Assembly: GCA_015832175.1 (NCBI GenBank)
Contig: WJXW01000017.1
Coordinates: 1,054,001 to 1,118,000 of the forward strand
Direction of reading: 5' to 3'
DNA from: Paraphaeosphaeria minitans
Lineage: Eukaryota > Ascomycota > Dothideomycetes > Pleosporales > Didymosphaeriaceae
Length of the DNA: 64,000 bases
A program made the translations under genes and the position numbers. The first letter of the stretch is position 1. Each line of letters starts with the position of its first letter. Shown piece by piece: positions 6,125 through 43,800 of this stretch. A model generated the notes under the pieces. It had not been told where the DNA came from and did no database searches. It worked only from the letters and a program-made list of their open reading frames with translations.

Positions 6125-7396
6125 ATGAAGTTCACCGCTACTGCTCTTGCGCTTGCGAGCGCTGTATCCTCTGTCGAGGGAGCTGTGCTTGGGGAGCGTG
6201 CTACGTATGCTGTTAAGGGTGCTGCTGAGGGTTGGTATACACTACCAGATGAAAAATGAATCAATTGACCCACATAACCAGGTTTCGCCAAGGGCGTCAC
6301 CGGCGGCGGCTCCGCTGCCTGCGCAGTCCCTTCTTCTACCGCGCAGCTCAAGACGTGGCTCAGCGACAGCACCGCCCGCTGCATAGTCCTCGACAAGGAG
6401 TTCAACTTCAAGGGCACCGAGGGTACCGTCACGGAGGACGGCTGCCGTCCCGCCTCCAACAAGTGCCCCGGCAACGGCGGCCAGGATGCTATCAACCAGG
6501 CCAGCTGGTGCACCAACGGCAATGCTGGCGCGGGCTCCAGCACCATTAAAGTCACCTACGACAAGGCCGGTATCAGCGGACTCACTGTCGGCTCCAACAA
6601 GTCCATCATTGGCGCTGGTAGCAAGGGTGTCCTTCGAGGAAAGGGCCTCCGCATTGCCAACGGCGCAAAGAACGTCATCATCCAGAACATACACATCACG
6701 GAGTTGAACCCACAGTACATCTGGGGCGGCGACGCCATCGCCGTCGATGGCTCGGACAACGTCTGGATCGGCGAGCCACCTCCCACTCCCTCCCACCTTC
6801 CTGTCTAACAAGCCTTTACAGACCACAACAAATTCTCCCTCATCGGGCGCCAAATGGTGGTCCTCGGCAACGGCGCCTCCAACCGCGTCACCATCTCCAA
6901 CAATGAGTTCGACGGCAGCACCTCCTGGAGCGCCACCTGCGACGGCCACCACTACTGGACCATCTACCTGACAGGCTCCAACGACCTCGTCACCCTCAAG
7001 GGCAACTACATCCACCACACGTCGGGCCGCTCCCCCAAGACCGGCGGCAACTCCCTCATCCACGCCGTCAACAACTACTGGTACGCCAACAGCGGGCACG
7101 CCTTCGACAACGGCGCCGGCGCCAAGGTCGTCGCCGAGGGCAACGTCTTCCAAAACGTCGTCACCCCGCTCCTCGACAACAAGGGCAACTTCTTCGGCAG
7201 CCCGTCCACGGGCGCAAACGCTGCGTGCTCCGCCAACCTGGGTCATGTCTGCCAGCTCAATGCGTTCGGTAGCTCTGGCTCGCTGGGTGGTACCGATACG
7301 TCCTTTTTGGGCAACTTCGCTGGGAAGAACGTGGCGGGTGCGGCTGCGGCGAGTGCGGGAACGATTCAGAATGGGGCTGGGGTTGGGAAGGTCTAG
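6125..7396 (+). CDS. Secreted pectin lyase, polysaccharide lyase family 1
   Basis: Exons 6125-6230, 6282-6770 and 6822-7396 give 389 aa, the usual length of fungal pectin lyases. Residues 1-19 are a hydrophobic signal peptide. The parallel beta-helix enzyme cleaves methyl-esterified homogalacturonan by beta-elimination outside the cell. Family landmarks are [37 protein letters not shown] and [13 protein letters not shown], the last carrying the conserved catalytic Arg region. The first intron uses GTTGGT as donor. The second (6771-6821) has a good CTAAC branch site and ACAG acceptor, but its donor is GC (GCGAGC); any GT donor nearby would destroy the conserved WIDH motif. Without splicing the frame stops at about 6807. 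Pectate lyase is less likely given the RSPK context. Confidence 0.9.
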
Positions 7397-8480
7397 CGGC
7401 TGGGGGGGGGGGGGGGGTGAGGTTTTGAGCTTGGGGGGGAATATGCGGGAAGGATTGGACAGGGGGGGAAGAGGGGGTGGTTTTGTTTTCTTCGAGTATA
7501 TATTTCGTGGATGAGGGGTTGTACGCTTGGTCGGTAGGTACATGTGCTTTGGATCTACAGAGCGGACTACTGTACATACAATTCAACCATGTTTGTCGAT
7601 GCCATTGATAGTCCGTTGTGCGTTACAGTGTCAGCGAGTCGTCCCAGGCTCTCTTTTCCACCAGGTAAGATTATTACCTAGCGGCGTCCCCCGTCTCGAC
7701 GAGCTTCCCGCTCTTGTACCTTTGTGAGGCACGCGAATATCTGAAAACTCAATAAAGAAGCGAAAGTGAATTCGCAAGAGCCCCGCACGCGAGGTGTATT
7801 CGATTGCCGTTTCAGTCGTCCCGCCTGTCTTGCAGGGGCCCTCGGAACAGTGGTGGCCTGGCCTCTCGCCTGCCGAGATCAACGATCTTTTTATTCGGGA
7901 TGGTGTTGGGTAACTGGGTGTCCTGTTTAGAGCTGTAATCTCTGGATGAGGTGCTGCTCAGGAAAGCTGAAACGTCAGCATGAGAGGCCTTGAGTTCTAT
8001 TGGGATGGCACATCACCATTGTGTGCTACGGGAGAGGTGTGCAGAAGCTTGCGGATGTAAAGACGTGTGCGATGGGCAAGGTGGAAGGAAGCTTAATGGC
8101 TGCGTGATGGGCGTTGGTGAGAGCATGTGCTTAGCTGTCCCGCAAGGTAGGTACGCCCTATGTCATACGAGAGAAGATGAAAAAGCGGAAAAATGATACC
8201 TAACACCACGCAGTCCCTTGTTTGTTTGTTTTTTGTTTAATCATTTGCAGAAATGACTGCGCTTGGATAATGTCGTGGAGACGGTCGCCATTGGAACTAT
8301 GAGACGGCTGGTCTTTTCCCTTGGCGAATCCAAGATTTGACTACAAATGTATTGTTGGTGCCTCTGCTCTGTAGAAATCCATGGTCGTCGGAGCGCCGGC
8401 GGGGCTGTGGTGGGGTGTGACAAGCACAAAAAAGAATGGTAAGACGACAAGGCGGATTGAACTGAAGCCAAACACCGCAC
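7397..8480. other. Intergenic with poly-G run, no gene supported
   Basis: A run of sixteen G occupies 7402-7417, right after the pectin lyase stop codon, within a G-rich 3' flank to about 7480. The rest has only short frames with no motif. Confidence 0.6.
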
Positions 8481-8486
8481 AAAAAA
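8481..8486 (-). terminator. RNA polymerase III T-run terminator of the tRNA gene
   Basis: Six T residues on the minus strand, 11 nt past the tRNA 3' end. They follow a perfect 14-bp palindrome, AAGAAAGCTTTCTT (8485-8498). Confidence 0.75.
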
Positions 8487-8497
8487 GAAAGCTTTCT

Positions 8498-8621
8498 TAG
8501 CTGAGCTACGTTTCGATCGTAGGTCTGTGAAGTTGTTAGTTGGGATTTAGGTCAAGTTGAGGTTGATTGAACTTACCCTCCGGGTTATGAGCCCGGCGCG
8601 CTTCCGCTGCGCCACTCAGCT
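8498..8621 (-). tRNA. tRNA-iMet: Initiator tRNA-Met (CAU), interrupted in the variable loop
   Basis: Two segments, 8577-8621 (45 nt) and 8498-8524 (27 nt), make a perfect 72-nt cloverleaf. The acceptor stem AGCTGAG/CTCAGCT has seven pairs. The D stem is GCGC/GCGC with loop AGCGGAA. The anticodon stem CCGGG/CCCGG closes loop CTCATAA (anticodon CAT). The T stem CTACG/CGTAG closes loop ATCGAAA. Pair A1-U72, three G-C pairs beside the anticodon loop and A54 in the T loop are the known marks of eukaryotic initiator rather than elongator tRNA-Met. Between the anticodon stem and the T stem lies an extra 52 nt; removing it leaves a normal five-base variable loop, AGGAC. A Pol III T-run follows at 8481-8486. 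The usual position 37/38 intron is absent. Confidence 0.9.
8525..8576 (-). other. 52-nt spliceosomal-type intron inside the initiator tRNA gene
   Basis: Read on the minus strand, the insert begins GTAAGT, has CAACTAAC 16-9 nt before the end, and ends TTCACAG. These are the donor, branch-site and acceptor features of the protein-gene introns in this window, and 52 nt is within their usual length. It lies after the third variable-loop base (about tRNA position 46), not at 37/38 where the tRNA splicing endonuclease cuts. How it is removed cannot be seen from DNA. Confidence 0.75.
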
Positions 8622-9266
8622 TTTTGAAGCTCAAGGTGAATTGATGAATAGTTTTCAAATATTATCATCTATATACACAAGATGTGTGATTTCTGCCATG
8701 AGCCAGGATACGAATTCTCCACGCTGCACATGCACTAAGGAAAGGAACTATGTCTGTTCTGTTGAGAAGTCTTTTTTGCTCCAGTGTGGGGTTCCTTTGC
8801 CCCTCGCTAAGTGCTACTGCAGCACAACGGGATGACTCAACACAAAGGACTTCCGAGCGATGAAAGCCGACACAGTTAATAAGAAGCGATATGTATCAAA
8901 GCATCACAACAAGGTATTGCCCTCTGTTTTCAAGAATTTGGGGATATGGAAATCGTTCAGTGAGAGTTTGATAGCAGGGAAGTGAATCGAGGCATTTTAC
9001 TAAGCCGACACGACCAGGTCAACGAGGAATCGCAATTAGATACCAAATTCATGACAAGAAGTACTTCGCATGACATTGCGGTTTGGCATGGCTGATGATT
9101 GCTGGCCGGCAACCGCGCCTGTATGGTGGAAGCTACGCTAGACCGATGCGGTTAAAACAGGTCACGTCGCGTGGTAACCACTTTACACGCGTCGCATCTC
9201 TAGTCCATCCATACCTCCGCTGAACTACATGCACACACAACACGCCTTCACCAAACTAAAAATCCA
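8622..9266. other. Intergenic, no gene supported
   Basis: AT-rich stretch between the tRNA gene and the CTF18 start. It holds short frames only; the last 100 bp presumably carry the CTF18 promoter. Confidence 0.6.
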
Positions 9267-12200
9267 ATGAGCACGTACTCAGACGGCATTCCGACCTCCT
9301 TCGACCCTGCGCTTCTAGACTCCGAACTCGGATCTCTCAACGCGCCCGCCTCCAACTCCTTCTCCGACGACCTCGACGCGATACAGCAGTGCTTCGCCGA
9401 AGAGAAAGCCAAGAAGACCGCCGCAGGCATAGTCATACAGCATCGTGTTTGGAGCACACTGGAAGCTTTCAGGAGCGAGGAAGACTACCCAATCGGTATT
9501 GCGGACGGTTAAAGAGCGCGAGAGCCGAACTAATCTCTTCAGACACGCCGCTGAAGCACCTAAAGAACGCGCCGCTCCAATCGACGGATATTGGGATTCC
9601 CTCCTCGCCACCAATCATGCCAATCGTTTCCTCGCCGGTGGCGTATCCGGTCAGCTCGTTACCAAACCCTAGCCCTCTGAAGAAGAGAAAGCGATCGGAC
9701 GCGGAGCGCAGCCCGCTCAAGGATGTGCCAAACAACAATGCTTCAAGAAGAGTGGGAGCCTTCTTGGACGACTCAGATGACGAGGACGACATAGCAGCGC
9801 TAAAGGAGCAGGCGCTGAAGAGAAGAGCGATCAACAGCATCAGGGACCTCCCAGCTCTGCCAGATGGCATGGACGACTACACCCCGCCCGCCAGCCAGTC
9901 AGAAATCGCAGACCCAGAGACGGTACCTATCGAGGCTCTGGATGAATACTTCAAGTCACCTTCGCCGGTCAAGCAACCTGCGGCGCCAATCGACGAACCT
10001 ACCTCAGCGCAGCCAAATCGCGGCAAGGTTGTGCGGACAGCTTCCGGGAAGCCATTCTACCTCCCTAAGAAAATTCAGCGAGAGTCTATATCATACGAGC
10101 AGCTCATCGCGGCTCGGTCTGAAGGCGAGCAAGGTCAGGCTAGACAGAGCTACTATGGTATTAACATCCACCGCCTCATAGACGATGCGAAAGCGATGGA
10201 CGAAGCAAAGGCTGTGCAACAAGAGCAAACACGCGCCGAACCCACGCGACAGTCCGTGGAACAACCTGTGTCTGGCAAGGCAAACCGAACATTGATGTGG
10301 ACTGAGAAATATCGTGCGAAGAAGTTCACAGACTTGGTCGGAGATGAACGCACACATCGCTCTGTTTTGCGATGGCTCAAGGCTTGGGACCCGATCGTTT
10401 TCCCTGGTGCAGCCAGACAGAAGCCGAAAAGTGCAAAGAAGGGGTTCGAGGAAGAGGAGCAAAAACACCGCAAGATTATGTTGCTTACCGGACCGCCTGG
10501 TCTCGGAAAGACGACCCTGGCCCACGTATGCGCTCGGCAAGCTGGCTACGAAGTGCAGGAGATCAATGCGTCCGATGAGCGCAGCAAAGATGTCGTGAAG
10601 GGCCGCATTCGCGACATGGTCGGCACCGAGAACGTCCGCGGAGTAAACACAACGACTGCAGGTGGCAAGGTTCGAAAAGCAGGCAAACCCGTATGCGTAG
10701 TTGTGGATGAGGTAGATGGTGTGGTTTCTGGCAATGGTGGCTCTGGCGAAGGAGGTTTCGTCAAGGCGCTGATCGACCTGATTAATTTGGACGAGAAGAA
10801 CTCGAAGAATGTCGGACAGGAGAACTCGACAGGACCAAAGCGAAAGAAGAAGGGTGACAGATTTCGACTGTTGCGTCCACTGATCTTGATCTGTAACGAC
10901 GTATACCATCCTTCGCTCCGACCGCTGCGACAATCATCGTGCGCTGAGATAGTCCACATCCGGAAGCCCGCGCTGAACATGGTCGTCTCTCGTATGCAAG
11001 AAGTCTTCGTCAAGGAGGGCATCCAGTGCGACTCAGACGGTGTACGGCGATTATGTGAAGCAACCTGGGGTGTCAGTACGAAGAAAGAGGGCGGCACAGG
11101 AAGTGGGACAGGCGAGGGAGACATCCGGGGCGTCATGGTGGTGGGTGAGTGGGTTGCTGGTCGCTTCAAGAGCTCCATAGATCCGAAGGAAAAAGGGACC
11201 CCGAGACTCAGTTGTCGCTGGATCGAAGACAATATCATCAACGACCTGGGGCACGGAGGTGGGGCATCTCGCAGTCTAGGACGAGGCGGTGCGAAGGACG
11301 TTGTCGATCGCGTCTTCCGTGAAGGCGCAGGCTTCCCTAAGCAGGCCGAAACGACTGGTATCGCTATCGCAACTGCGAGAGCAAAACAAGGCGTAATCGG
11401 TGTCGCTGAGACATCAAAGAAACGAGCCATGGCTCGACTCCGGGAAATGGTAGACACGAGCGGTGAAAGTGATCGCATCATAACTGGTATAAGGATCCTG
11501 TCCCATCTACTACTCCAGCTCTAACAATCTCCAGACTGCTTTTCTGCCTATCCCTTGAAGGCTTTCCAAGACGACAACTACCTTACCAAGCCCACTGTCG
11601 CATACGAATGGCTGCACTTCCACGACACACTATCATTCGCCGTCCACGGTTCTCAGGAATGGGAACTCGCGCCCTACCTCTCACAGTCTGTCCTCGCCTT
11701 CCACAATCTCTTCGCCTCGCCCCGCCAGCATTCTTCCAACCCGATCGCCGACCCCGATGTAGAGACAAGCGCATTTTCTGGTCCAAGTGCAAACTATATG
11801 GCTAGCGAAGAATTGAAGAAGAACAGAGCGCAATTGATGGCATTGCAAAGCACACTCAGTCTCCCACTCACCCGGCAATTCCGAAGTCCGGAGGAGATGG
11901 CACTTGAGTTGATACCGTACGTGCTCAGAATGCTCTCGCCAGACGTGAAGCCCGTCATTGTGAACACTGGTGCCACCGGCTCGAAATCGGTTGCCACCGC
12001 TTCTGTGCGGAAAGCGTCGGAGAAGGAGCTCGTCAAGAAAGCCGTCGAAGCCATGGCCGCGACAGGCGTCCGGTTCGAGAGAAGCAGGGTGGAACTCGAA
12101 GACGTGGCGAATCGTACAGGTGGCTGGGTCTTCCGCATGGAGCCTCCGCTAGACTCCCTCGCCGCTTTCGAAACACTAGCCGGCAAGAAAGACGACAAGG

Positions 12201-24835: not shown

Positions 24836-25220
24836 TCATGCTGAATATCGTGGTCCACGCTCGATCAGCCATTGACGAGATAATCCACATTCTGACTAAG
24901 AGCATGCGATACAAGAGCCGGAGTGACTGAAGCAAGATTGGTCATGATAACAATAGATTACTTACGCGAACTCGCTTCTGTGGCGGTCCCTCTTCGATCC
25001 AGGGACGCGGGAGCTCGACGTACGCTGGAGCAGCCTGCTGGGTTTCCCGCTCCCAGTGGACTGGGGATTTTGCGAGAAGCAAAAGGGCGGTGGCGGCTTC
25101 GAGCTCTGCTTGGGTGCATCCGGGCTTCATCCTTGGTTGATTGTGGCTGGCCGACTTGGATGTTGCAGACGTAGCAGTGACCAACGAGGTTCTGAGGGCG
25201 CTCTCCTTGGGAAAGGCCAT
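24836..25220 (-). CDS. Possible small protein, 104 aa
   Basis: Tentative exons 24966-25220 (85 codons from the ATG at 25220) and 24836-24895, joined across a 70-nt intron with donor GTAAGT and acceptor TTAG but a poor branch site. The protein has a helical segment, CTQAELEAATALLLLAKSP, and ends in a short basic stretch. The first exon is the better supported part. I do not recognise it. If the intron is wrong, the frame ends seven codons after the donor. Confidence 0.35.
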
Positions 25221-26036
25221 GCCTGTGGCTGGGTTAGCTGGTGGTGCCACATACGTACAACGCGCCGCGAAATATATAGTAGAGAAAGGGAAGGTATTCA
25301 AGGCAACAATGTAACCAACGGACTTTCTCCGTCACCGTCACCGTCACCGGACTAGCTCGCTAAGCGCCTTCACTATCACTCTCACTTGACAAACGGAGAA
25401 GGGTCTCGAGGTGACGGGAGGGCAAGCCTGTGCGTGAGAGGTTCGGGTGCCTGGAGTGCGCCGTGAACCAACCCCACACTGGTCACAGTCATGAAAAATC
25501 TTGTTACCCAAATAGTCGCGTACGCAAGCTCTGGATTCGTATTGTATACACGGGGGCTCCGACTTACAAGGCTTGCTGCTTGAGTTGAGAGATGTGCGAG
25601 CTGGGCATGACTAGAAGGTGGCGAAAGAGCCTCCGGGCGTTTGTTCCGGCGCATTTGTGTTCGATGCCAGCAAGCAGCTCTGTTTGAAGGAGACAAGAGG
25701 ATAGAAAAGTAACATGAAGAGGAAATAAGGGTGACACCAGCGCAGTCCAACTTAGGTGCGACTACGCTAGCCTCTACCTAGCGTACCTACCTAAGACTAG
25801 CATCTTTCAGGGAAGGATCACCACAAAGTGATATCTAGAACGTTGAACAAAATCGGCTAAGCCCCTTGGGTATATCCTTTGCATCTTCGATCGATCAAGT
25901 CACTACTGAGACTTGATTAGACCATGCAATGCTGCTATCTCCTTAGAACCTACTGCTTGTCGAACGACTTCACCACAGTCCGAATAACATCCCTAACCTC
26001 CAAAGAAGACGTTTGGTTGTATAATGCCCGGACCCA
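25221..26036. other. Intergenic with short GTCACC repeat, no gene supported
   Basis: A GTCACC hexamer is repeated about three times at 25331-25348. Other frames show no motif. This is the left border of the relic-rich segment. Confidence 0.55.
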
Positions 26037-40101: not shown

Positions 40102-40713
40102 TGCCGTCGGCTCACGCTCACATCCTCGTTACCTATCTACTTGCGTCAGCGGTTTGTTTTCGCCCGGGGAGATTTTATTTTTCTTCATCATCACGTTCAT
40201 CCGCAGCGTAGCATGGCATGGCATGGCATAGCCTAGCATTTTGGGCATTTTCTCGGCGTTGGATACCAGGGACGGTGGGGGCACGGGGATGCGCTGGCGG
40301 CATGGGCATCTATCTGAATTGGCATTGCCGGCGTGGCTGTTTAGCACCTTTTAGACATCATCATTCGGGCGTTTCTCTTTTTTTTCTTTTTGCATCAATT
40401 CATCCTTTTTACTCTTTTCTCATTCTTTTCTTTCCTCTTTCTTTCCTTTCCCGTAGTTGGAAAGGACCCACGCCGACGACGAGGCGGGAGCGTTCGGACA
40501 GGGGGGGAAAAAGTCACTCAGTGGGATTCGCTACGATGGAAACGTGGGGAGCGAGATGGGTGTTTAAGGGGGGAAGGGAGGGCGGGCGGGCAAGGGGGAG
40601 GTAACATCTCCATCAGATCAGACTTTTTGGTGTACGTGTATGCATGCGTTTTTTGTGTTCCAGCCCAGTCCAGTCCAGTCCAGTCCAGGCCGCACCAAAC
40701 CAAGCATGGCAAC

Positions 40714-40744
<31 letters not shown>

Positions 40745-40874
40745 CGCCAATCCATGCACGAACCGCACTATGACGCTCCCTTTCGCGAACCACACGGAAG
40801 GAAGGTTTAACCCACGACTTCCCCCCCCATCCCGTCTCGTCATCATACACAGTCCAGCCCCCGCCCCCACGCGT
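40102..40874. repeat. Convergent 3' region with simple repeats
   Basis: Contains a CATGG pentamer run (40211-40229), a T/C-rich tract (about 40375-40450), a CAGTC pentamer run (40666-40688) and a GAAAAA run (40716-40744). No gene is supported between the Zn2Cys6 factor and eIF5B. Confidence 0.7.
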
Positions 40875-43800
40875 CTACATGATGTCGAAACTCTCCTTGA
40901 GCTGCTTGATGAGCTTCCACTCGTCCATGCTGACGTCGGTGCGGAAGTAGTTCTTGAGCGTGTCGATGCTCTCGCGGGAGATGTGGGAATACAGCGTGTC
41001 TTTTTCCTCGAGGTGGCGGCCGTAGAGGGGCTGGTTGGGGCCCTCGATCTTGACAGCGACGGACGGCTGGCCCTTTTTGCAGACGGGGATTTGCTTGTGG
41101 TCGCGCTCGATGGACGTGCTGTTGGTCTGATTAACATCATGACGGGGGCGTGGGGAGGAGAGGGTAGGAGAGGGGGAACATACACTCTGCCCAGGGAGAT
41201 GATCTCTTTGAGGCCGGTGACGGGGTTCTTCTTGATGGCGGCGATGGGGGTTGTGATTTTGAGGCTGCCTTCGACGACGTCGACGCCGAGGACGATGGGG
41301 TCTTTCTTGTTGAAGACGGCGATGGGGCTGAGCACGCAGGGGAAGACGGCAAGCATCTTGCTGTCCTCCTTGCGCTGCTCCTCGAGCTGCTTCATGTGCG
41401 CGGTGAACTTGTCGAAGAGGTGGTAGATGATGTCTGCTTCGAAGATCTTGACGCCGATTTCGTCGGCGTAGGCGCGCGCGTCGCGGTCGACCTTGACGTC
41501 GAAGCAAAGCATGACGGCGAATTCTTTGGCTTTTTCTAACATGATACCTGCGCGTAGGACATCTTTCTTGAAGACGGGGCCGATGGAGATGGTGGCGACG
41601 GGGATCTTGGAGACGCGCAGGAACTCGAGCAGGGCTTCAAGTGAGCCGAGCGTGGATGCTTGAACCGAGACACCACGGCCGGTCTTGGACACCTTGCTAA
41701 GCAAGTGGGCAAGATCGCCCATGACTTCGTCCATCAGATCCTCTTCGTCGTCGTCTGGGCCAACGACAAGCAGTCGCGAACCGGCAATGGCTTGGTCAAG
41801 ACCATCGGCGGCGATCTTGATACCCATGGCGGCCTTGACCTCCTTGTTGTGTACGTATTGTGACTTGACACGGAGCTCCTTCATCTCGGCAGGCGTAAGC
41901 AGAGCTCGAATGTTGGTCGCTATAGGCTCGGGATTTCCGCAGAGTACTACCCGGTCGCCCTCGTGCAGCACACCATTGGAGAGAATAACGTCGATGGTGG
42001 TGCCGAGACCTTCGATAACCTTTACTTCCAAGACTGTGCACTCCACCTCAGACAGGTACATGAGGTTGTTCGTCATACGCTCCTGAGTGAGCTTGATGAT
42101 GAGCTTGATCATATCGGGGATACCTTCTCCGGTGTGCGCAGAGGTTGGGCACACGGAGACATACCGCGACATGTTCTTGTTCCTGAAGAAGAGCTCCGAG
42201 TTGAAACCTTGTTCTTGCAGTTGCGTGTGTACCATGGACCATCGGTCGTCGAACTCCTTCTTAACGCGGTCCTTCTGTAGGCTCAACGAGTCCTCGAAAC
42301 CGTTGTTATCAATCTTCTTCCAGTCAAGGAGACGGTCGATCTTGTTGAGAGCGACGATGAAGGGTGTTCTCCGTTCTCGCAGCAATCTCATGGACTCCAG
42401 TGTCTGTGGCTCGAGACCGTGCATAATATCAATGACAAGAATAGCAATGTTGCAGAGGGAAGAACCTCGGGAGCGCAAGTTGGTGAAAGACTCGTGACCA
42501 GGGGTATCGATAACGAGGAGACCGGGGACATTGAACACGAACGAGTGGTCTTTGTTGACGACGGCTGTCTTCTTCTCCAATGCCTCAACAGGGAAGTAAG
42601 TGGCACCAATCTGCTGCGTAATACCACCAGCCTCGCCTTCCTGGACATTGGTCTGTCGGATCTTGTCCAAAAGCTTGGTCTTTCCGGTATCGACGTGGCC
42701 AAGAATACAGCAAATAGGTGATCGGAGGTTGTCACTGGATCGGGCGGCGAGTGCCTCTTCGTGCAGCTTCTTCCTGCGTTCCGCCGCGGCAGCTTTTCGG
42801 GCAGCTTCAGCGCGCTGTGTGGCAGTGCCCTCCTCGTCGGAAGATGAGTCGTCACTGTCGTCGCTGTCATCCTCTTCTTCAGAGGACTCGTCGTCTTCCG
42901 CAGATTGGGCAGCTGGCTTGCTGTTGGCGGCAGCCTCCTTCTCCTTTGCCTCCTTTGCAGCAGCAACGGCGGCCTTCGTCTTCTCTTCCTCCTCGTCGCT
43001 GTCTGCGTCCCAGCTGTCCTTGACGCCATCCATGGCATCGGCCTGGGCCTCCCAGTCTTCGGCTGAGTCACTCGCGTCGCCCTTCTTCGCCTCAGCGTCT
43101 TCACGCGCCTTCTTCGCCTCAGCCTCGGCAGCAGCAGCCTGCTCTTCGGCTATCCGGAGCTCTTCGAGTTTATTTGCTGCCTCTTCGGCCTCCTTCTCCT
43201 TCTGCAGCTCGGCCTGGTTCTTCTTCTTCTTCCTGCGGTCGTCGTAGACCGGCTTTTTCTTCTCGGTGGGCGCTTCAAGTGCATCCACCTTGGCAGTTCC
43301 GCTCTCCAGCATCTGCTTCAAGCGCAGCTCGTTCCGCGCCTTGGCCTCTTTCTGTGCCTTGGTGAGGTACTTACCCTCCTTCTTCAGCTGCTCAACCTTC
43401 TCTTTTTCTTTCTGCTTCTTGAGAGCTCTGGCCTCAACCTTCTTCTTCTCCTCTTCCTCGGCCTTGCGCTCCTCCTCCTCCATCTTGGCCTTTTCTTCTG
43501 CTTCAAGGCGCGCCAGTTCCTCTTCGCGTTTCCGTCGCTCTTCTTGTTGCTTCTGGAGTGCAGCAAGGGCGGCGGGAATTTTCTTGCCCTTCTTGCCAGC
43601 GGCGGCAGCTGGAGCGGCAGCTGGCTCGTGGGTGGGTGCTGATGGAGTGGCAGCCTTGGTCTCTGCGGGCTTCGCGGCTTCGGTCTTTGCGGGCGCGCTG
43701 GCCTTCTTCTTCGCGGCCTGTATCGAAGTTAGATTCGGTCTCCTCCAAAGTGTCTCTCTGCCGGGTGCAGCAAGAACATACCATCTCCTTCTTCCGCTGC

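Follow-up and report, generated by a model that had tools for sequence, protein, structure and literature searches.

Nuclear tRNA genes of Paraphaeosphaeria minitans, among them all initiator tRNA-Met genes found, carry putative spliceosomal introns

Paraphaeosphaeria minitans, also known as Coniothyrium minitans, is a mycoparasitic fungus of Sclerotinia. In a stretch of 64,000 nucleotides (nt) of its contig WJXW01000017.1 (the window; the contig is called C17), part of a 47.45-Mb assembly of 30 contigs, the gene for the initiator transfer RNA (tRNA), tRNA-Met, is divided by an insert that has the signals of a messenger RNA (mRNA) intron. All three initiator genes that we found in this genome are split, and nine further tRNA genes carry inserts of the same kind, some of them firmly and some of them probably identified. 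From sequence we propose, with a probability of roughly 0.8, that spliceosomal (GT-AG) introns entered nuclear tRNA genes and that the RNA polymerase III (Pol III) transcripts of these genes are spliced by the spliceosome. In fission yeast and some other fungi the Pol III-transcribed U6 small nuclear RNA genes contain spliceosomal introns, and natural introns of this type in tRNA genes would extend what is known of spliceosomal introns in Pol III RNAs.

When the two outer segments of the window gene are joined, they form a 72-nt tRNA for which ARAGORN gives a full cloverleaf, with hallmarks of a eukaryotic initiator: A1-U72, three G-C pairs adjoining the anticodon loop (stem CCGGG/CCCGG, loop CUCAUAA) and A54. 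The first-pass annotation, made from the letters of the window, had read the exons as an initiator tRNA, and both direct reading and the cloverleaf bear it out. It had also described an insert of 52 nt that starts with GTAAGT, ends with CACAG and leaves on removal a five-nucleotide variable loop, here AGGAC, and this is what the minus strand holds; the insert does lie away from 37/38, as had been stated, and standard numbering puts it at 46/47. At the frequencies with which these motifs occur in the window, the chance of finding GTANGT, YAG and a CTAAC within 22 nt all correctly placed in one insert is about 1.5e-7. The unspliced locus obtains 34.6 bits with the Rfam tRNA model.

The three initiator loci lie on contigs C17 (the window), C9 and C1, and each has an insert of the form GTANGT...CTAAC...YAG, 52 nt long at C17 and C9 and 53 nt long at C1. 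A 19-mer from the D arm has three perfect matches genome-wide, and 97 at up to three mismatches against 76 for its reversed control; a 21-mer from the T arm has four matches at up to three mismatches, namely three perfect ones at the initiator loci and one elsewhere with three mismatches. The joined 72-mer, used as a DNA query of the genome, returned only six pieces, two per known locus, and no contiguous initiator gene. The first-pass annotation had suggested that the initiator genes of the genome be counted, and had reasoned that several intact copies elsewhere, together with a lack of spliced reads, would make the window gene a pseudogene; all of the copies found are split, and a search across the genome for intact ones gave none.

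The boundaries of the initiator inserts were determined without the use of any splice rule. All single excisions leaving 72 nt were made at each locus, and exactly one product, a complete initiator tRNA, is common to the three. At C1 only one cut yields this product, and its ends are GT..AG; C9 and C17 each allow two slip-equivalent cuts, one of them GT..AG, and C1, which is uninterrupted at the variable loop, fixes the junction of both. The mature parts are identical across the three genes (72/72 positions between C9 and C17), while the inserts of C9 and C17 agree at 32/52 positions; the exons are therefore kept by selection or conversion, and the inserts are not. Each locus has its own 3' trailer, AGAAAGC at C17, TGAGACTT at C9 and TGAGTTCT at C1, and a DNA search of the genome found no further copies of the C17 and C1 inserts.

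Other split tRNA genes were sought at sites supplied by an Rfam tRNA search (at least 52 matches; 62 of 1307 candidates scored) and by two patterns that join a T arm to a terminator, the first with 96 matches against 23 for its reversed control and the second with 39 against 33; seven sites of the first pattern and 13 of the second, which were chance-like, were left aside. The survey is partial, covering part of the Rfam candidates and two types of T arm that have a T4 nearby, in one genome whose assembly may miss genes. With L059 and L062 (mitochondrial-like), L101, L177, L207 and L208 left out, 108 loci were scored for their ability to fold into a cloverleaf, with a 37/38 intron permitted. 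Unaltered, 74 of them do so, including the C1 initiator with its 53-nt insert taken as a 37/38 intron; among the remaining 34, removal of a GTRNG..AG segment lets 11 fold, five fold only by other cuts and 18 never do. Counting C1 as split, this gives 12 split genes beside 73 uninterrupted ones (Table 1). The nine non-initiator inserts fall in the acceptor, D and T arms, and the GT-AG solution is top-scoring in 10 of the 12 split genes. Across the 17 loci rescued by excision, GT..AG ends are among the top solutions at 10 and the next best ends at six, a tally that is blurred by flexible loop lengths, and for this reason a comparison with paralogues was relied on instead.

In the paralogue test every excision of 40-79 nt in the nine non-initiator genes was compared with the nearest uninterrupted relative; Arg-TCT was compared with another isoacceptor, which differs at 18/72 positions, and Leu-CAG with Leu-AAG. 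In six of the nine (Asp, Arg-ACG, Arg-TCG, Ala-CGC, Leu-CAG and Arg-TCT) no other product equals that of GT-AG removal, and in Val-TAC it is tied with two others. After GT-AG removal mature Asp, Arg-ACG and Ala-CGC are identical to their uninterrupted paralogues at 72/72 positions, and Arg-TCG differs at 3/72. The best products can each be obtained by cutting at two to five slip-equivalent sites, one of which is GT..AG. We regard as firm the split genes for the initiator (three), Asp, Arg-ACG, Arg-TCG, Ala-CGC, Leu-CAG and Arg-TCT, and as probable those for Ser-CGA, Val-TAC and Val-CAC. Asp, Arg-ACG, Arg-TCG, Arg-TCT and Ala-CGC also have an ordinary 37/38 intron, so that two splicing systems would act on the same precursor. 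A DNA search of the genome gave no second gene for Arg-TCT, although a divergent copy could escape it. When the 11 split loci other than that of the window were submitted to Rfam at E <=0.1, seven were reported, one of them below the cut-off, and four were missed, so split tRNA genes are easily overlooked.

Table 1. Features of the split initiator gene of the window and insert sites of the 12 split tRNA genes (window positions from the first letter of the stretch; insert sites in tRNA numbering)
Feature	Window position	Strand	Insert site	Details and basis
Exon 1, initiator tRNA-Met (tRNA positions 1-46)	8577..8621	-		45 nt; sequence and ARAGORN
Insert, read as spliceosomal intron	8525..8576	-	46/47	52 nt; GTAAGT...CCAACTAAC...CACAG
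CTAAC branch-site-like motif	8535..8539	-		branch A 11 nt from insert 3' end; sequence
Exon 2, initiator tRNA-Met (tRNA positions 47-73)	8498..8524	-		27 nt; sequence and ARAGORN
A box TGGCGCAGCGG within exon 1	8604..8614	-		sequence, by the A-box consensus
Internal B box GATCGAAAC within exon 2	8510..8518	-		sequence, by the B-box consensus
TATATA	8670..8675	-		starts 54 nt upstream of nt 1; sequence
T6 run, Pol III terminator-like	8481..8486	-		12-17 nt downstream of tRNA; sequence
Second, extragenic B-box-like motif GTTCAATCC	8454..8462	-		36 nt downstream of tRNA; motif search
Initiator tRNA-Met (three)			46/47 (C17), 46/47 (C9), 38/39 (C1)	rule-free excision test
Ser-CGA (L098)			3/4	cloverleaf test
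Leu-CAG (L099)			10/11	cloverleaf test
Val-TAC (L178)			15/16	cloverleaf test
Arg-TCG (L166)			18/19	cloverleaf test
Arg-TCT (L164)			19/20	cloverleaf test
Val-CAC (L196)			20/21	cloverleaf test
Ala-CGC (L180)			25/26	cloverleaf test
Asp-GTC (L163)			52/53	cloverleaf test
Arg-ACG (L191)			52/53	cloverleaf test

The 12 inserts are 49-68 nt long and none lies at 37/38. Their donors are GTAAGT (five), GTATGT (two), GTAAGC (two), GTACGT, GTAAGA and GTGAGT (one each), and their acceptors CAG (eight), TAG (three) and AAG (one). All 12 have a CTNAY motif with the branch A 9-12 nt from the end of the insert, and all 12 agree with the U2-type consensus of donor, branch and acceptor (GTRNG, CTNAY, and CAG, TAG or AAG), the form GTRNG...AG being, for the nine non-initiator inserts, the search rule itself. 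Four mRNA introns in the window, from CTF18 and a chitin synthase gene, are 45-51 nt long, start with GTAT and end with CAG or TAG; three of them have the branch motif, with its A 9-10 nt before the intron end. The CTF18 reading frame matches a P. minitans protein with 100% identity over 91% of the query, and the chitin synthase matches the same species at 99%. The tRNA inserts thus agree with mRNA introns in size and branch geometry. The interiors of the inserts resemble one another slightly more than do shuffled sequences, the top three pairs being matched by 6, 3 and 11 of 300 shuffles, which is too weak for a claim of repeat origin. At least 11 insertions are needed for the 12 split genes, since C9 and C17 share a site.

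Ordinary 37/38 introns are common in the tRNA genes of P. minitans and differ from the GT-AG inserts in position, splice signals and the anticodon-intron pair. ARAGORN made 68 calls in the surveyed tRNA loci, 51 of them with an intron; with the exclusion of 19 for which it placed the start elsewhere, the anticodon-intron pair is present in 29 of the 32 introns with a canonical start. Very long post-anticodon inserts (67-100 nt by ARAGORN) that do not have GT-AG ends were seen at L151, L157, L172 and L187, and are probably long 37/38 introns.

A TATA motif lies 36-54 nt upstream of nt 1 in 11 of the 12 split genes, Val-CAC being the exception, and this spacing is kept also where the insert is at 3/4 or 10/11, so that the split unit as a whole is positioned like a tRNA gene; a TATA within 80 nt was found in 46 of 51 other tRNA calls. 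The initiator genes retain A and B boxes and are followed by T-runs. Past the end of each initiator gene, beyond the first T-run, lies a second B-box-like GTTCRANCC, at 36 nt in the window, 43 nt at C9 and 50 nt at C1, and the U6 gene of the same genome has such a motif about 20 nt past its end (the window locus, L009, L010 and L050 for the three initiator genes and U6). In the 51 other tRNA calls GTTCRANCC occurs three times within 130 nt downstream, two of these next to another tRNA gene, and twice upstream, and no extragenic B box was found at the nine other split genes or at three uninterrupted controls. The U6 gene of budding yeast has a downstream B box, and the presence of one at the initiator genes suggests that Pol III would transcribe them. 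An uninterrupted tRNA-Arg CCT gene (L060, C9:192871-192942) has a B-box-like GTTCGAATC 73 nt downstream, and L169 and L201, which have TATA, B box and T-runs and no recognisable tRNA, are candidates for other Pol III genes.

According to the proposed explanation, Pol III would transcribe a split gene from its TATA/A-box/B-box promoter to the T-run, and the spliceosome would excise the insert via the 5' site GTRNG, the branch CTNAY and the 3' AG, as in mRNA. From precursors that also contain an ordinary 37/38 intron the tRNA endonuclease would remove it separately, and the usual enzymes would complete processing. The Pol III step is supported by the promoter anatomy, and the spliceosome step by the splice signals and the shared product. 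Anatomy, copy number by searches of this assembly, exact junctions, shared mature product and promoter signals were read directly, and from them we infer that the transcript would originate from Pol III, that its cutting would be spliceosomal and that the product would be used. Because all three initiator genes and the sole Arg-UCU gene found are split, the whole supply of these tRNAs would go via the spliceosome. That both are supplied entirely by spliceosomal splicing of Pol III transcripts, and that tRNA genes are a landing place for new mRNA-type introns, seems to us rather probable, the odds being lowered by the interrupted A boxes of some genes and by the weak Ser and Val cases.

Several observations weigh against the spliceosomal interpretation. 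The donors differ, GTAAG being found in 8 of the 12 tRNA inserts and GTAT in all four mRNA introns, a very small sample. Five of the 17 loci rescued by excision (L151, L156, L157, L172 and L187) have no GT-AG solution, and in the cloverleaf test the GT-AG solutions of Val-TAC and Val-CAC are one point under the best other cut. In the paralogue test the GT-AG product is not the best for Ser-CGA (50 against 52) or for Val-CAC (14 against 21), which has no close relative, and Rfam takes Ser-CGA (L098) as an uninterrupted tRNA with 37.2 bits. The C9 and C1 initiator inserts hold a second possible AG, at 44 and 46 nt. Three genes, Leu-CAG, Val-TAC and Arg-TCG, pose the problem that the insert breaks their A box, and U6 lacks an intron in this genome. 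For Asp, Arg-ACG, Arg-TCG, Ala-CGC and Val-TAC there are uninterrupted relatives, so that the split copies of these could be dead. Finally, spliceosomes normally work on RNA polymerase II (Pol II) transcripts.

The last of these points could be accommodated if the introns are spliceosomal and are spliced from a Pol II transcript running through the tRNA. We consider this unlikely: TATA motifs stand at the distance usual for tRNA genes, T-runs follow just downstream, the initiator genes keep their A and B boxes and have extra B boxes as at U6, and the window gene is not inside any detected gene but between an open reading frame at 6242-7543 and CTF18, which starts at 9267. If instead insertions have turned the split genes into pseudogenes, intact genes would supply the tRNAs, as the uninterrupted relatives of five of them would allow; this is also how inserts in the D and T arms of tRNA genes of eukaryotes are usually interpreted (PMC4090602). 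No uninterrupted initiator gene and no second Arg-UCU gene were found by DNA search, the initiator exons are identical while their inserts diverge, splice signals are present in 12/12 and TATA is retained in 11/12. For the initiator we reject decay, given that no intact copy was found and that the identical exons are not decaying, and as a general account it is quite improbable; single split copies with intact relatives could still be dead.

Excision by the tRNA splicing endonuclease, or by another route guided by RNA structure, could be envisaged, since the C1 insert is one position from 37/38 and a red alga and nucleomorphs do remove non-canonical tRNA introns (PMC4090602; PMC3978253). Yet a cut at 37/38 in C1 would put G38 into the product, against A38 in the other copies, and C32 would stand opposite T, so that the pair seen in 29/32 ordinary introns would not form; a simple pairing test found a strict bulge-helix-bulge at 0/12 junctions, the central helix alone being possible at Ala-CGC; and the fixed spacing of GT, CTNAY and AG would be left unexplained. 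On position, product and pairing we reject both the endonuclease and the bulge-helix-bulge, and hold such a route to be very improbable. Some tRNAs can accommodate an insert in the variable loop, and the insert might be retained as the long variable arm of an unusual initiator, but the C1 copy, which encodes the same tRNA with its insert in the anticodon loop, makes this scarcely credible, and we reject it. Among the three fates offered by the first-pass annotation, splicing of a Pol III transcript by the spliceosome is thus favoured, supported by the finding that each of the three initiator loci is split, at one or the other of two sites, by their one common GT-AG product and by nine further tRNA genes; removal by an unknown route and a dead copy are the less favoured ones.

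The U6 introns of other fungi resemble the inserts of P. minitans in that an mRNA-type intron interrupts a Pol III gene that has TATA and B-box elements close by; the difference is that here tRNA genes are hit and U6 is uninterrupted. In 1990 Koehrer, Vogel and Domdey reportedly found that an engineered yeast tRNA gene with a pre-mRNA intron was spliced by the mRNA machinery. The route proposed here is the same, from tRNA precursor to spliceosome, with the intron man-made there and natural in 12 genes here. Introner-like elements, which produce bursts of intron gain in fungi, are known in protein genes; they share with the present case many short spliceosomal introns in one lineage, and the mutual similarity of the tRNA inserts is, as said, slightly above that of shuffles. 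A search of openly licensed PubMed Central (PMC) papers gave no natural spliceosomal introns in nuclear tRNA genes by title or abstract, which is a weak indication of absence. There was no eukaryotic initiator in 33 stretches with the D-arm 19-mer (24 from prokaryotic records; nine from viral contigs, with one free base), and the exon-plus-donor pattern had 0 matches in viral contigs.

In PMC4090602, most D- and T-arm inserts of eukaryotic tRNA genes are described as affecting a single member of a large synonymous set and are presumed to mark pseudogenes, and real non-canonical tRNA introns are reported from nucleomorphs and a red alga; the term 'spliceosom' is not in that text. The introns of nucleomorphs and of Cyanidioschyzon merolae are D- and T-arm inserts, as in P. 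minitans, but those of Guillardia theta are 3-24 nt long and those of the red alga are based on a bulge-helix-bulge (PMC4090602), whereas the present ones have 49-68 nt with GT-AG and branch motifs. An initiator for which no intact gene was found breaks the argument from synonymous genes. If the split tRNA genes are spliced as proposed, cells would need the spliceosome to make tRNAs, with a direct dependence of translation initiation on it; splicing capacity would be linked in a closed circle to the start of translation and so to the production of the proteins that make up the spliceosome. Such genes would also be a test bed for intron entry, with short, structurally fixed tRNA exons and, as some have identical uninterrupted paralogues, with insertion sites that are fixed except for a slip of a few bases.

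Some minor observations were made at other loci. An eIF5B gene lies in the window at 40613-43483 on the minus strand, about 32 kb from the split initiator gene, which is probably a coincidence; eIF5B works together with initiator tRNA in subunit joining. At L193 (C1:3121000-3121240) a tRNA-Ser-like 3' end is followed by a T-run, and the sequence to which it is joined does not make up the rest of a tRNA. The mitochondrial-looking tRNA genes L059 and L062 lie at C3:2840217-2853194 in a 4.3-Mb contig, and represent either mitochondrial DNA copied into the nuclear genome or a misjoin. The sole ribosomal RNA region recognised by the 5.8S model (L110, on C12 at about 25201-25354) is strikingly AT-rich, as if mutated by repeat-induced point mutation.
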